The notes under the pieces: model-generated
Told to the model about the DNA's origin: nothing
Databases searched by the model: none
Seen by the model: the letters and a program-made list of their open reading frames with translations, nothing else
NCBI GenBank assembly: GCA_030064755.1
Contig: JASJEH010000099.1
Span: forward strand, 1-32,791
Reading direction: 5' to 3'
DNA length: 32,791 nt
Source: Methyloceanibacter sp.
GTDB lineage: Bacteria > Pseudomonadota > Alphaproteobacteria > Rhizobiales > Methyloligellaceae
Position numbers and translations under genes: made by a program
Shown: positions 6,564-32,747 of the stretch, piece after piece
How positions within the stretch are numbered: the stretch's first letter is position 1
How the letters are laid out: each line of letters opens with the position of its first letter

Positions 6564-6592
6564 TTGACTGTTGCAAATTTGCAACGTCTAGT
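6564..6592 (+). promoter_or_regulatory. Sigma-70-type promoter with a perfect 16-bp palindrome filling the spacer
   Basis: TTGACT (6564-6569) and TCTAGT (6587-6592) are separated by 17 bp. The spacer contains GTTGCAAATTTGCAAC (6570-6585), a perfect inverted repeat and therefore a likely operator for a dimeric regulator. Predicted transcription start is near 6599, leading into the structured RNA. The -10 box matches consensus at 4 of 6 positions. Confidence 0.55.
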
Positions 6593-6598
6593 TTTCCT

Positions 6599-6807
6599 TG
6601 AGGTCCCACCGAACTTGCGTTAGCGTTAACTCACGGTCTCACGGCGGCCCGATAGGGCAAGTGGATATAGCCACGCCGGTAACTTTATTCACCAACCGTG
6701 AGGACGCCGGCAGTTCCCTGCTAATGGTCCGACACCGACTGGCCATGCCAGTCATGTCAGTCCCCCAAACACTCTCCACTCCCCGCCCCAAGCGGGGAGT
6801 TTTTTTT
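6599..6807 (+). ncRNA. Structured RNA or 5' leader upstream of the D-Ala-D-Ala dipeptidase gene
   Basis: About 210 nt between a predicted promoter and a perfect intrinsic terminator, with no convincing reading frame. Complementary segments form an ordered fold. A long-range stem pairs 6630-6637 with 6695-6702 (8 bp). It encloses CGGC/GCCG (6642-6645 with 6675-6678) and two hairpins: GCCC-GATA-GGGC (6647-6658) and GTGG/CCAC (6661-6674). After it come GGAC/GTCC (6702-6730) enclosing GCAG-TTCC-CTGC, and a 7-bp hairpin GACTGGC/GCCAGTC (6737-6753). The terminator ends 42 nt before the ATG at 6850, so this may be either an independent small RNA or a leader in which termination controls the dipeptidase gene. 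I could not match it to a known riboswitch class. The 5' end is predicted. Confidence 0.5.
6778..6807 (+). terminator. Rho-independent terminator
   Basis: A perfect 9-bp stem, ACTCCCCGC (6778-6786) with GCGGGGAGT (6792-6800), a 5-nt loop and eight T (6800-6807). It lies upstream of, not after, the nearest same-strand gene start, so it ends a separate transcript or acts as an attenuator. Confidence 0.9.
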
Positions 6808-24029: not shown

Positions 24030-24089
24030 GGATAGCGCAGCACGAGGACAAGTGGAGGCGAACCTAAACCGGTCCGGCTCCCCCAAATG

Positions 24090-24126
24090 AAAACCCCCTC
24101 CTCCCATCCCGGAGCGAGGGGGTTTT
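24090..24126. terminator. Bidirectional intrinsic terminator
   Basis: AAAACCCCCTC (24090-24100) and GAGGGGGTTTT (24116-24126) form a perfect 11-bp stem flanked by A and T runs, so it can end both the plus-strand repeat protein gene and the minus-strand mla operon. Confidence 0.9.
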
Positions 24127-24212
24127 CGTTTGTCCTGGGGCCGGTTTTGCGAACCCAGTGCCGTCGCCATCACCAAGTGAGCGCCGCGCCGGCAGTTGCG
24201 CCTGGCCTAGCG

Positions 24213-29475: not shown

Positions 29476-30480
29476 ATGCTGAACCGCGCAACGAGCGCCT
29501 CTCAGGCTCTGTCTTCAGAAGACAGCACTCCGCAAGTCAGCGAAGCTGAGGACGCGGAATACGCCGCACTTGAGGCGACACTCAGGAGTTCCGAGCTTGG
29601 CCGCCGATTCTTGGCGGACTATGCGCGCCAGCACCCAACTCCGGAAGTTAAATTGCTGCTAGACGCCGTGGCGCGGCTTGAAACAGCATCGCAAGAACCG
29701 GATCGGAGAATTCAAGCTCACGGTCTAGTGTCCGAACTGGTGGCGATGAGTGAAACCATCAGCGAGATGCGCCGAGAGATTTGCGCGCTCAACCTTTCGG
29801 ACATTCCGGAGAACGACCTCATCACTGCGCCGTGTGCCTTCGAACAGATTCTCGAAGCCTCGGCTCAGGCGACCTCCGACATCCTGACGGCACTTGAGGA
29901 GATACAGAACGTCTCCACGGCGCTGCGCGAGAAGGGGATCGCGCTGGAGAGTTGCGACAGGCTGGACGAACGCGCGGTCGATATCTACACAGCGTGCGCC
30001 CGGCGGGAGATCGCGGGACAGAAAACGGCCGATGTCCTGAACCTGCTGCGAGACGTGGAGCGCCGCGTCGATGCGCTGATCGAAGACTGGAGCGACCACG
30101 AGACGCAGAACCTCCTGGATGCCGCCAAGGCATTGGACGTAGGCGAGGCCTTCGAAGCGGTGGCCCCAGGGCCCCGAAACGACAACACGCGCCCAGAACG
30201 GCGTGAATCCTCCCAGGACGAGCACTCCAATAAAGCGGAGAAGACGCCTGAGGACCGGACTGAGCACCAACAGCCCGTGCCGCGCCGCGCCAATCGGCTC
30301 GTACCGCAGGATGACCTCCAGCCAGCGTCCGAAGCGCTGGCCCCCGCCCATGAGGTTGAGCCCGAAGCATTGCCGGCTAACCCTGGCCCCCTATTCGATG
30401 GACCGCGCCCGTTCGCGAGTCCCGAGCCTTTGACGCTTGAAAAGCTGATCGCGGCGCAGCGTACCGCGCTGTTCGGCTAA
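29476..30480 (+). CDS. CheZ-like protein
   Basis: A 334-residue, mainly helical acidic protein. The N-terminal EYAALEATLRSSELGRRFLADYARQH, a following helical hairpin (about 90-160), and DIYTACARREIAGQKTADVLNLLRDVE (about 168-194) resemble alphaproteobacterial CheZ-like proteins, in which that helix carries D-x3-Q catalytic residues for dephosphorylating CheY. Here the matching residues read E-I-A-G-Q: the glutamine is kept but the acidic residue is Glu rather than Asp. The C-terminal 110 residues are Pro/Glu-rich and disordered, ending in LEKLIAAQRTALFG, a short helix that could be a docking peptide. No chemotaxis genes are nearby. Family assignment is moderate. Confidence 0.55.
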   Translation: MLNRATSASQALSSEDSTPQVSEAEDAEYAALEATLRSSELGRRFLADYARQHPTPEVKLLLDAVARLETASQEPDRRIQAHGLVSELVAMSETISEMRREICALNLSDIPENDLITAPCAFEQILEASAQATSDILTALEEIQNVSTALREKGIALESCDRLDERAVDIYTACARREIAGQKTADVLNLLRDVERRVDALIEDWSDHETQNLLDAAKALDVGEAFEAVAPGPRNDNTRPERRESSQDEHSNKAEKTPEDRTEHQQPVPRRANRLVPQDDLQPASEALAPAHEVEPEALPANPGPLFDGPRPFASPEPLTLEKLIAAQRTALFG

Positions 30481-30572
30481 AAATTATGTCAATAATTCTA
30501 GTGCGTTAGATGCGACGGGCTGAAAACCACTCTCGGGCCCTTGAAAGCTCCCTGGCGCTTACCCATCTCTGG

Positions 30573-30660
30573 CGGGACGCAAACTTCCCCAACGCGTCCC
30601 CCAAACTGACGCATGCAAATGCGAACGGCTCGGTTCCCCCCAACCGGGCCGTTTTCTTTT
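30573..30660 (+). ncRNA. Tandem small RNA, copy 1
   Basis: A predicted three-hairpin RNA. Hairpin 1: GGGACGC (30574-30580) with GCGTCCC (30594-30600), a 13-nt loop containing CTTCCCC. Hairpin 2: CGCAT/ATGCG (30610-30623). Hairpin 3 is the terminator. A -35-like TTGAAA (30541-30546) lies 17 bp before CATCTC (30564-30569), giving a start near 30574. The exposed C-rich loops could pair with Shine-Dalgarno sequences. It is homologous to copy 2 168 bp downstream. Confidence 0.6.
30624..30660 (+). terminator. Terminator of small RNA copy 1
   Basis: AACGGCTCGGTT (30624-30635) pairs with AACCGGGCCGTT (30642-30653), 12 bp with one G-U pair and a loop of six C, followed by TTCTTTT. Confidence 0.9.
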
Positions 30661-30740
30661 GCCCGGGCCTAGCGGACGCGGCGCGGGCAAAAAAACAATC
30701 GTTTGCTCTTGAAGACCAAGGGCCCGACTCCCATTTCCAG

Positions 30741-30828
30741 CGAGACGCAAGTTCCCCCAACGCGTCCCCCAAACTGACGCATGACACATGCGAACGGCTC
30801 GGTCCCCCCACCGGGCCGTTTTCTTTTT
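30741..30828 (+). ncRNA. Tandem small RNA, copy 2
   Basis: Same architecture as copy 1. Hairpin 1: GACGC (30744-30748) with GCGTC (30762-30766), a 13-nt loop with TTCCCCC. Hairpin 2: CGCATG/CATGCG (30778-30792), one pair longer than in copy 1, with the sequence changed but pairing kept. Hairpin 3 is the terminator. TTGAAG (30709-30714) lies 17 bp before CATTTC (30732-30737), as in copy 1, while the spacer sequence differs completely, which supports a promoter role. Confidence 0.6.
30793..30828 (+). terminator. Terminator of small RNA copy 2
   Basis: AACGGCTCGGT (30793-30803) pairs with ACCGGGCCGTT (30810-30820), with a loop of six C and TTCTTTTT after it. Confidence 0.9.
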
Positions 30829-30843
30829 GGCGGCGCAGACAGA

Positions 30844-31917
30844 TTAGGCCGCCGTCTTCCTCCTGATCAGTCTCTTGGGATTGAGACGCGTCAAAAGGCG
30901 TCTGCGTTCTGGCAGACCGAGATTGTGGGCCGCCAGCACATTGTCGAGGAACTGCTGTGCGGAATTCTCCCAACTGAAATTCAACGCATGATCGCGGGCA
31001 TCCTCGCGACTGAGCTCAAGCGCTCTGAGGGCTGCGGTTTTGAGGTCGCTATGCAGAACGCCGGCGGCAGGGTCAGTAATCACATCCTTGGGTCCATGGA
31101 CCGGATAGGCCGCAACCGGAACACCACACGCCAGCGCCTCCAGAAGCACGAGGCCAAACGTATCCGTGAGGCTGGGAAACACGAACACATCACCGGACGC
31201 ATAGGCCTGCGCGAGTTCTTCGCCTTCCTTGGGGCCGGTGAAATGGACGTCAGGATAGGCCCGTTCCAGCTCCGCCAACTGCGGGCCACCACCCACCACG
31301 ACCTTGCGGCCGGGCAGATCAAGCTTCAAGAACGCCTCTATGTTCTTTTCGACAGAGACACGCCCGATATACAGGAAGACCTTATCGCCACCGAAGAGTC
31401 GGACATCCCGGGGCCGGAACAGGTCGACGTCAACGCCGCGCGTCCAGCGCATCATGCGCTGGAAGCCTTTAGCCGCCAGGTCCTCTTCCACCGATGGAGC
31501 GGCGACAAACAAGCCCGCGCCCGAATTGTGGAAGCGCCGCTGAAAGGCATAGCCCCAGGACTCCGGGACTGGCAGCCGTGCAGAGACATACTCCGGAAAG
31601 CGCGTGTGGTAGCTCGTTGTGAAGGGGCGCTTGTGCTTGCGGCAATAGCGCCGCGCCAGAAGTCCGAGAGGTCCCTCCGTCGCGATATGCACGAAGTCAG
31701 CGCCAACGCTATCGATATAGCGGTCGACCATGCCAGGTGTCGCCAGCGCCAGCCGAATCTCCGGATAGGTCGGACACGGGAGCGTGCGGTACTGCGATGG
31801 AACGAGGAAACTGAGCTCCGCGCCGAATTTGGGAGTCTCCTGCGCAAGCCGCTCATAGGTGCGCACAACCCCGTTGACCTGGGGATACCAGGCGTCGGTG
31901 ACGACGAGAACGTGCAT
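30844..31917 (-). CDS. agt: GT4-family glycosyltransferase, probable Agt (glycolipid synthesis under phosphate starvation)
   Basis: A 357-residue GT-B glycosyltransferase of family 4. The N-terminal domain starts MHVLVVTDAWYPQVNGVVRT with the acceptor-side glycine loop; the C-terminal domain has FLYIGRVSVEKNIEAFL and the nucleotide-sugar E-x7-E region in DTFGLVLLEALACGVPVAAY. Its ATG shares one base with the stop of plcP (TGATG), so the two are coupled. In other alphaproteobacteria the plcP-agt operon converts phospholipid-derived diacylglycerol into mono-glycosyl-diacylglycerols when phosphate is short. The name rests on this pairing plus family; the sugar added (glucose or glucuronate) is unknown. 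Two sRNA genes lie just past its 3' end on the other strand. Confidence 0.8.
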   Translation of the reverse strand: MHVLVVTDAWYPQVNGVVRTYERLAQETPKFGAELSFLVPSQYRTLPCPTYPEIRLALATPGMVDRYIDSVGADFVHIATEGPLGLLARRYCRKHKRPFTTSYHTRFPEYVSARLPVPESWGYAFQRRFHNSGAGLFVAAPSVEEDLAAKGFQRMMRWTRGVDVDLFRPRDVRLFGGDKVFLYIGRVSVEKNIEAFLKLDLPGRKVVVGGGPQLAELERAYPDVHFTGPKEGEELAQAYASGDVFVFPSLTDTFGLVLLEALACGVPVAAYPVHGPKDVITDPAAGVLHSDLKTAALRALELSREDARDHALNFSWENSAQQFLDNVLAAHNLGLPERRRLLTRLNPKRLIRRKTAA

Positions 31918-32747
31918 CAGGCGACCGCCTCAAGCTCCTTAGAGGAAGTTTCGGGCTGATGGACGCCAGTATGAGGATTCCAACGGATGATCTGGAAGAC
32001 TCCTTCTTCGGTCTCGACCACTGCCGTGCAGCTCTCGACCCAATCGCCCGTGTTTATGTAAACCACGTCTGCGAGCTGACGCATAGCGGCATGATGAATA
32101 TGCCCGCATATCACGCCTTGAGCACCACTTCGGCGCGCCTCTTGCGACAACGCGTGCTCAAACTCGCCAATGAAATTCACCGCTCGCTTTACCTTGTACT
32201 TCAGATAGGCCGACAGCGACCAATATGGCATCCCGAACCAGCGGCGAACCGCATTGAGATGCGTATTGAACCATAAGGCGGTGACATAGCCCCAATCACC
32301 GAGAAAGGCCAGCCATTTGGCATAGCGCACGACAACGTCGAACTCGTCGCCATGCATGACCAAGAATTGGCGTCCATCTGCGGCTGTGTGCATCGTCTGG
32401 CGCTCGATCGCGATTCCGCCGAACTGAGACCCGCAATACTCGCGCATAGCCTCGTCGTGATTGCCGGGGATGTAGATGAGTTCGGTGCCCTTCCGAACCT
32501 CGCGAAGCAACTTCTGTAGAACGTCGTTGTGAGGCTGCGGCCAGTAGACCCCGCGCCGGATGCGCCAGAAGTCTACGATATCGCCGACAAGGTAGATCCG
32601 TGGTGCTTTGTGAGACTTCAGAAAGTCCAAGAAGGCTTCGGCTTGGCAAGCTTTAGTGCCAAGATGAATGTCGGAAATGAAGAGGGCCCGATAACGCTGA
32701 ACCTGAGCGTCAGCCTGCCCCTCATCTTCTCTGCGAGTGTCCAACAT
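31917..32747 (-). CDS. plcP: Metallophosphoesterase, probable phospholipase C PlcP
   Basis: A 276-residue calcineurin-like metallophosphoesterase of the LpxH/COG2908 type. Metal ligands are D26-x-H28 (SDIHLG), D56 (GDIVDFW), N96-H97 (GNHDE), H132 (HGDE) and H216-x-H218 (GHIHH). In Sinorhizobium and marine alphaproteobacteria, PlcP proteins of this family split phosphatidylcholine and phosphatidylethanolamine to diacylglycerol under phosphate starvation. Coupling to the glycosyltransferase gene and a Pho-box-like site upstream favour PlcP over a UDP-diacylglucosamine hydrolase. The ATG at 32747 has no Shine-Dalgarno, so the start may be leaderless or inexact. Confidence 0.82.
   Translation of the reverse strand: MLDTRREDEGQADAQVQRYRALFISDIHLGTKACQAEAFLDFLKSHKAPRIYLVGDIVDFWRIRRGVYWPQPHNDVLQKLLREVRKGTELIYIPGNHDEAMREYCGSQFGGIAIERQTMHTAADGRQFLVMHGDEFDVVVRYAKWLAFLGDWGYVTALWFNTHLNAVRRWFGMPYWSLSAYLKYKVKRAVNFIGEFEHALSQEARRSGAQGVICGHIHHAAMRQLADVVYINTGDWVESCTAVVETEEGVFQIIRWNPHTGVHQPETSSKELEAVA

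Follow-up and report, generated by a model that had tools for sequence, protein, structure and literature searches.

Tandem candidate small RNA genes with C-rich motifs and RpoH-type promoters in Methyloceanibacter

Two tandem units on the plus strand of a 3.0 Mb Methyloceanibacter genome look, judging by their sequence, like real small RNA (sRNA) genes. They belong to a family, apparently undescribed so far, that is conserved in Methyloceanibacter and its relatives. The window, the whole stretch of DNA analysed (32,791 nucleotides), is contig C10 of this genome. We consider it probable that the two genes yield trans-acting, RpoH-driven sRNAs of ~88 nt whose redundant UCCCC motifs pair to mRNAs. 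The gene structure, its conservation, the promoter class by sequence, the covariation of a GCGUC/GACGC helix and of the terminator, and the redundancy of the motifs are direct observations. In the proposed mechanism, each copy would be transcribed in vivo by RpoH-RNA polymerase from its own CTTGAA-N17-CCAT(C/T)T promoter and would end at an intrinsic terminator. The RNA would display its UCCCC(C)-A motifs, redundant and two or three in number, in loops or unpaired stretches. Through them it would bind G-rich mRNA segments at or close to the translation start, so that the mRNAs would be translated less or become less stable while RpoH is active; two copies would raise the sRNA dose. The family, found in four families of the order, is a further case of heat-shock control seemingly wired to a C-rich sRNA, and it lends itself to a comparison of targets and copy number across species.

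Gene structure and spread of the family

Both units lie between a hypothetical gene and a convergent glycosyltransferase gene (Table 1). An initial annotation of the window had described small RNA genes with C-rich loops, in two copies 168 bp apart, each with a -35/-10-like pair at a fixed 17-bp spacer and a terminator loop of six C. These points are borne out: covariance-model hits lie at 30570-30660 and 30738-30827, the pair of boxes is found at both copies, each copy has a terminator with a six-base C loop, and exposed C-rich motifs are well supported by the sequence. The folds are more stable than those of shuffled sequences (z -4.99 for copy 1 and -4.28 for copy 2), with 0/200 shuffles as stable.

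Table 1. Positions of the tandem units, their parts and the neighbouring genes in the window
Feature	Position	Strand	Remark
Hypothetical protein gene, upstream neighbour	29476-30480	+	no Pfam match
Copy 1 promoter, -35 CTTGAA (30540-30545), 17-nt spacer, -10 CCATCT (30563-30568)	30540..30568	+	sigma-32/RpoH type by sequence
Copy 1 putative small RNA	30574..30661	+	start estimated ~6-7 nt after -10 box; model score 103.7 bits
Copy 1 hairpin 1 of the initial annotation (HP1a), upstream GACGC at 30576-30580	30574-30580 paired with 30594-30600	+	
Copy 1 covarying hairpin (HP1b), GCGUC-(CCCCAAACU)-GACGC, downstream GACGC at 30608-30612	30594..30612	+	
Copy 1 hairpin 2 of the initial annotation, CGCAT/ATGCG	30610..30623	+	
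Copy 1 intrinsic terminator, six-C loop	30624..30661 (30623-30654 in the terminator scan)	+	terminator scan, fold
Copy 2 promoter, CTTGAA-N17-CCATTT	30708..30736	+	sigma-32/RpoH type by sequence
Copy 2 putative small RNA	30742..30828	+	start estimated; model score 96.8 bits
Copy 2 covarying hairpin, GCGUC-(CCCCAAACU)-GACGC	30762..30780	+	competes with 30744-30748 paired to 30762-30766
Copy 2 hairpin 2 of the initial annotation, CGCATG/CATGCG	30778..30792	+	
Copy 2 intrinsic terminator, six-C loop	30793..30828 (30792-30821 in the terminator scan)	+	terminator scan, fold
Seed candidate UCCCCCAAAC	30597..30606 (copy 1); identical at 30765-30774 (copy 2)	+	
Further C tracts	30585-30590, 30634-30641 (copy 1); 30752-30758, 30803-30809 (copy 2)	+	
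Glycosyltransferase gene, convergent	30844-31917	-	protein family match
Metallophosphatase gene, after glycosyltransferase	31917-32747	-	protein family match

The core sequence is present in records of Methyloceanibacter superfactus, M. marginalis and M. methanicus and in seven MAGs. A search of the open-access literature, with most subscription papers outside its reach, returned no paper with both Methyloceanibacter and small RNA. By DNA search the sRNA is found in 17 of 61 genomes, and in 15/17 within the genus. A first covariance model was built from 24 copies and a second from 34, after removal of an antisense row (L006 1459-1543). With these models the sRNA is found in 28/30 genomes of the taxonomic family, including all 17 well-complete ones and all six genera; the two genomes without a match are fragmented MAGs. 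The remaining matches of the first model within the genus are different C-rich RNAs or terminators.

Order-wide, 55 of 397 genomes match at E <= 3e-4. Membership was accepted only for loci that were read and showed the promoter and the hairpins, which gives five genomes of family f12, one of f10 and one of f17 outside the own family; the members in these three families are more divergent. Three further loci (L130, L131, L133) were read and rejected. Class-wide, 18 of 385 genomes match at E <= 1e-4, one being the source genome itself. Reading of 18 loci in the other 17 genomes gave none with the whole feature set; two (L134, L135) carry CCAAGCGUCCCCCC without the downstream arm, and the matches outside the order look like chance terminators.

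Two copies occur in G000, G003 and G013, three in G005 and G014, and one in the other 23 genomes; beyond this count, G020, of another genus, has a second copy. A tree was made of 18 units from the genus: the downstream copies from four genomes form one group (87/96, an open fork), but G000 copy 2 is placed among the upstream copies, and most forks are unresolved.

Promoter class

The search models excluded the promoter stretch. In 41 of 42 members CTTGA(A/C) stands at an almost constant position, followed by 16 or 17 nt and a CCATCT-like box. Their -10 boxes are CCATCT (22), CCAAAT (7), CCATTT (6), CCAGAT (2), CCAAGT (2), CTACAT (1) and CCAATT (1). The 42nd member (G023) has CTTGAT and CCATTT, and the second G020 copy, outside this count, reads CTTGAC-N17-CCATAT by eye. 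In random 74-nt windows of the collected loci the pattern is found in ~0.5%, true promoters included. The E. coli sigma-32 boxes are CTTGAA and CCCCATTT, as given in the available part of PMC10216364. A -35 CTTGAA and a CCATNT-like -10 box stand at sigma-32 spacing, and the assignment of the promoters to the heat-shock sigma-32 (RpoH) type is well supported at the level of sequence.

The source genome holds the exact pattern CTTGAAN{17,19}CCATNT five times and the reversed-pattern control once. The sites are those of both sRNA copies, one before an IbpA-like gene, one before a SufA/IscA-like gene and one antisense in an open frame. The IbpA-like gene product exceeds the Pfam HSP20 cut-off, and NCBIfam IbpA is its best match yet below the cut-off of that model; likewise the SufA/IscA-like product exceeds the cut-off of Pfam Fe-S_biosyn, with the SufA model as best match below its cut-off. 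Chance alone would give an estimated ~4 sites at even base composition, so the argument for RpoH rests on which genes the sites precede and not on how many sites there are. An RpoH gene over the family cut-off is present in 16/17 genus genomes, one in each, and the 17th has a partial match. As a yardstick, clpB was read at 11 genus loci, and no CTTGAA/CCATNT pair was found at this spacing. By eye, 10 of 25 groES loci have CTTGAAA beside a CIRCE-like repeat with a CTAMAT-like -10 box; the one groES locus examined in the source genome is not among the ten. Therefore, not every classical heat gene carries these boxes. The clpB promoters of the genus (L152-L161, L169) have CCTCTTTT-like and CGCTATATG-like stretches in common instead of CTTGAA boxes at sigma-32 spacing.

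It is improbable that the promoters are ordinary sigma-70 promoters with a weak -10 box and that the RNAs are housekeeping or growth-phase sRNAs. A -35 of CTTGAC, also used by alphaproteobacterial sigma-70, is found in nine of the 41 members, and RpoH and sigma-70 motifs overlap in Sinorhizobium according to the accessible text of PMC3616915. However, the -10 box starts with CC in 40/41 members and thus is without the second-place A that sigma-70 needs, a sigma-70 scan of 30400-30900 gives 0 sites, and the boxes match those before the ibpA-like gene. Control of sRNAs by RpoH has been described in Rhodobacter (PMC8307010, PMC10253847) and proposed for two Sinorhizobium sRNAs (PMC3616915), as far as the available portions of these papers go.

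Conserved helix, C-rich motifs and candidate targets

The initial annotation saw selection on structure in its hairpin 2, where pairing would be kept while the sequence changes between the copies. There is selection on structure, but it is best shown for another helix, GCGUC/GACGC. In copy 1 (CGCATGCAAATGCG) and copy 2 (CGCATGACACATGCG) the arms of hairpin 2 are the same CGCAT/ATGCG, and copy 2 only gains one extra pair, so that the claim as worded is not borne out. Hairpin 2 appears in the minimum-energy fold of 13/24 copies, the two of the window included, all from six close genomes; nine have the register of the initial annotation and four are shifted by one base (GCATG with CATGC or TATGC). 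It is missing from this fold in the other 11. By alignment column, a count that misaligns the rows with shifted register, 43% of cells pair and no pair is changed on both sides. The shifted hairpins give mild support to the initial annotation inside the close group; as an argument for structural selection hairpin 2 is weak. Hairpin 1 of the initial annotation has five core pairs that are invariant in the genus and so uninformative on covariation; of its two outer pairs, one is disrupted in 12 and the other in 13 of the 23 distinct rows.

From the genus alignment RNAalifold chose, in place of hairpin 1, the pairing of GCGUC with a downstream GACGC. GCGUC is the 3' arm of hairpin 1, and it can pair downstream around a C-rich loop; the two hairpins are mutually exclusive because both use this segment. 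In distant members the downstream helix occurs as GCGCU/AGCGC, GCGCC/GGCGC, GUGCC/GGUGC and GCGUU/AACGC besides GCGUC/GACGC. Among 43 rows (41 distinct; the second G020 copy is counted here) 99.5% of its cells pair, two of the five pairs are changed on both sides, and three vary on one side. Helix and terminator together reach a covariation score of 0.356; shuffles give 0.158 and slid controls no more than 0.101, and in the slid controls 23-46% of the cells of the whole structure are paired. The number of pair types in helix and terminator shows no clear excess (24 vs 21.4; 54/500 shuffles as high). The alignment of 43 rows was fitted to the tested structure, which favours it; the arms themselves can be read directly in the sequences.

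In partition-function calculations the window copies pair GCGUC upstream (1.00 and 0.99), and ten distant rows pair it downstream (at least 0.97). Several genus members have mixed values, for example upstream/downstream 0.40/0.59 in G010, 0.53/0.47 in G016 and 0.00/0.99 in G009, so that the predicted fold differs between close relatives. The family offers a clear-cut case in which the predicted partner of a single conserved segment lies upstream in some relatives, downstream in others.

Of the 22 genus copies, 21 have three UCCCC motifs each, and copies outside the genus mostly have two; in either fold the motifs lie in loops or unpaired stretches. One G013 copy has lost the seed. A similar build is known from LhrC of Listeria, an unrelated bacterium, in which, by the available text of PMC4132741, three redundant UCCC sites bind to G-rich sequence ahead of a start codon as a stem is opened. 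LhrC1-5 are likewise multicopy, with UCCC sites in a loop, a single strand and the terminator loop, and stem A opens, but they are controlled by LisRK. The tandem RNAs resemble them in having several redundant UCCC sites, some of them looped, a likeness of mechanism and not of kinship. An unlikely reading is that the RNAs act on a protein instead of on mRNAs, with their exposed C tracts as decoy for a protein that binds C, for instance Rho or some small RNA-binding protein. The tracts are kept across families while the sequence next to them differs: AAACU follows in the genus, and ACGCU or ACACA outside it. Such a pattern is as compatible with a protein that binds C runs as with a seed for base pairing. 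Against a decoy, the genus shows almost no variation in the bases that follow the tract (AAACUGACGCAU) either, one tract lies within a defined hairpin throughout the family, and LhrC, a known RNA of similar build, pairs with mRNA.

For the preferred reading, of sRNAs pairing to mRNAs, candidate targets were searched in 17 genomes with one 10-mer, GTTTGGGGGA, the complement of the genus-wide seed UCCCCCAAAC. It has 103 matches, 20 of them the sRNA genes themselves, and the reversed control has 20; since uniform chance would give ~90 matches, the excess over the reversed control does not count as evidence on its own. The 83 remaining sites comprise 17 porin starts, 14 sites in a second sRNA, 12 in a 3' UTR and 40 others. 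The porin starts come from 12 genomes (PF13609 was tested on one, and the others are alike by eye), and in 11 of the 15 sRNA-bearing genus genomes the tandem RNA has 11-nt complementarity to a porin start. These sites were picked by the 10-mer of the sRNA itself, so porins that do not match it are invisible to the search. Four sRNA-bearing genomes (G006, G008, G010, G011) show no porin-start match in this 10-mer search. Across the sites the codons TTT GGG GGA are fixed; in 14 porin genes GGA makes up 9/541 and GGG 73/541 of the Gly codons, and TTT 58/194 of the Phe codons. That these codons are fixed all the same suggests selection on the RNA. The duplex energy of tandem RNA and porin start is no better than with shuffled targets, 47 and 57 of 200 shuffles being as good. 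By their complementarity the porin mRNAs are candidate targets, and masking of Shine-Dalgarno sequences by the tandem RNAs is plausible by analogy and from the complementarity to mRNA starts.

The second sRNA gene (window 6564-6807, plus strand; L195 and 13 relatives) occurs in 14/17 genus genomes. It has a fold z of -3.98, a TTGACTG box with the palindrome TTGCAAATTTGCAA and a strong terminator, and no Rfam match over the cut-off. In eight of the nine genomes with both genes and an uncut site, 16-20 nt of it are perfectly complementary to porin starts; the match is 13 nt in the ninth (G007) and 12 in G003, where the site is cut by the contig end. For the tandem RNAs the porin match therefore counts as a lead; for the second sRNA, which fits the site better, it is a strong one. 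The 3' UTR among the sites is a conserved G-rich stretch, GUUUGGGGGAGCCUGG..., that lies by eye between a small membrane protein gene and glnA (L181, L188, L198, L208, L215, L221 and others). In 11 of 12 genomes it is complementary to the tandem sRNA over 11-13 nt, and it could be a sponge.

A more elaborate reading joins these elements in a fold-switching heat-shock sRNA. The ancestral partner of GCGUC would be the downstream GACGC, which all four families have; the upstream GACGC would be a later gain of Methyloceanibacter and a single sister genus. On heating, or when a target binds, GCGUC would flip from one to the other, so that a different C tract comes to lie in a loop. The seed GUCCCCCAAAC would be common to the tandem RNA and the second sRNA (window about 6594-6807), which is of sigma-70 type, so that two stress inputs would meet on porin synthesis, with the 3' UTR beside glnA as sponge. 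Taken as a whole, we hold this to be quite unlikely.

Genomic neighbours, known systems and other C-rich RNAs

The glycosyltransferase and the metallophosphatase form a pair which we take to resemble a phosphate-starvation lipid-remodelling operon. Both adjoin the sRNA in all 15 sRNA-bearing genus genomes and in two of the sister genus, and the hypothetical gene does so in 14 of the 15 and in both sister-genus genomes. Protein identity is 27-66% for the hypothetical protein and 55-91% for the glycosyltransferase. No match to the neighbour proteins is found within ~1.5 kb of the eight distant sRNA homologues compared. The initial annotation, which placed the sRNAs directly behind a phosphate-starvation lipid operon, had read the genes correctly, but the operon is convergent and has no counterpart near these eight homologues. 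As read from its boxes, the promoter type points to heat-shock-type stress rather than phosphate. That the elements are processed 3' ends of the upstream hypothetical gene is very improbable: they start ~60 bp past its stop codon (30480) on the same strand, but each copy comes with a conserved promoter and terminator of its own, and the eight distant relatives are without any of these neighbours.

At Rfam thresholds nothing matches in the window, nor does any family member among 13 loci tried; the single match in these loci is BjrC1505, elsewhere in L109. Matches below threshold cover the terminator or other hairpins: 6C RNA (RF01066) reaches 17.5 bits vs a cut-off of 47, and ctRNA_p42d (RF00489) 25.4 and 15.2 bits vs 50, with the terminator alone. 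Their likeness is a C-rich hairpin loop or a terminator-like hairpin. AbcR/alpha-r15 gives no match at gathering or at E <= 10, in a library for which the presence of that model is not established. The cuckoo RNAs of Rhodobacter and Rhizobiales (CcsR1-4, alpha-r14 and NfeR1 among them) are also alphaproteobacterial and have several homologous copies and C-rich loops. The cuckoo/alpha-r14 family is marked by CCUCCUCCC loops, in the available parts of PMC10746234 and PMC3927594, whereas the tandem RNAs carry UCCCCCAA. No CCUCCUCCC motif lies in 30541-30828, the sole match in the window being at 24097, and neither flanking protein, the only proteins searched, matches DUF1127. A kinship with the cuckoo RNAs, raised by the initial annotation, is therefore not upheld. 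CcsR shares the RpoH-type promoter; as far as the accessible text of PMC10253847 describes it, a DUF1127 gene (CIN1 locus) is co-transcribed with the R. sphaeroides RNAs, which are processed from one RpoHI/RpoHII precursor with one promoter, while the tandem copies each have their own promoter and terminator. StsR of R. sphaeroides is, by the available portion of PMC8307010, a short sRNA under RpoHI/RpoHII of 72 nt, and it is set beside the tandem RNAs by description and not by sequence. The best reading is that the tandem RNAs work like LhrC or cuckoo RNAs in kind, without membership by these tests.

Other C-rich RNAs were met alongside. One more C-rich sRNA family, conserved in the genus (L108, L110-L113, L104, L094, L115; C81:2606-2692 in the source genome) is built of GACGGAG-UUUCCCUC-CUCCGUC, GGUUCC-CCCCCAAACA-GGAACC and a CCCCCC terminator loop, with two related copies ~1 kb apart in G010 (L115). 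A third type (L109, L116) has GGUGG-UUUCCCUC-CCACC and a C-rich terminator loop, and in G005 it lies ~0.9 kb from a BjrC1505 (RF02356) match (L109 1928-2001). Two loci (L102 and L103, from G015 and G010) show CTTGAA-N16/17-CCATAT followed by a hairpin CCGUC-CCCCAAA-GACGG and a terminator, possibly a further RpoH-type sRNA. In another order of the class, L136 (G697) has an RpoH-like promoter CTTGAAAG...CTACAT, then a hairpin whose loop is CCCCCCUCCCCC, and CCCCCC in the terminator loop; the arrangement resembles that of the tandem family, and its C-rich hairpin is of different sequence. Within the window, at 24080-24135 behind a 1398-aa ORF, a terminator-like hairpin has the cuckoo motif CCUCCUCCC in its loop and CUCCCCCAAAU ahead of it, with 0.36 such 9-mers expected by chance in the window.
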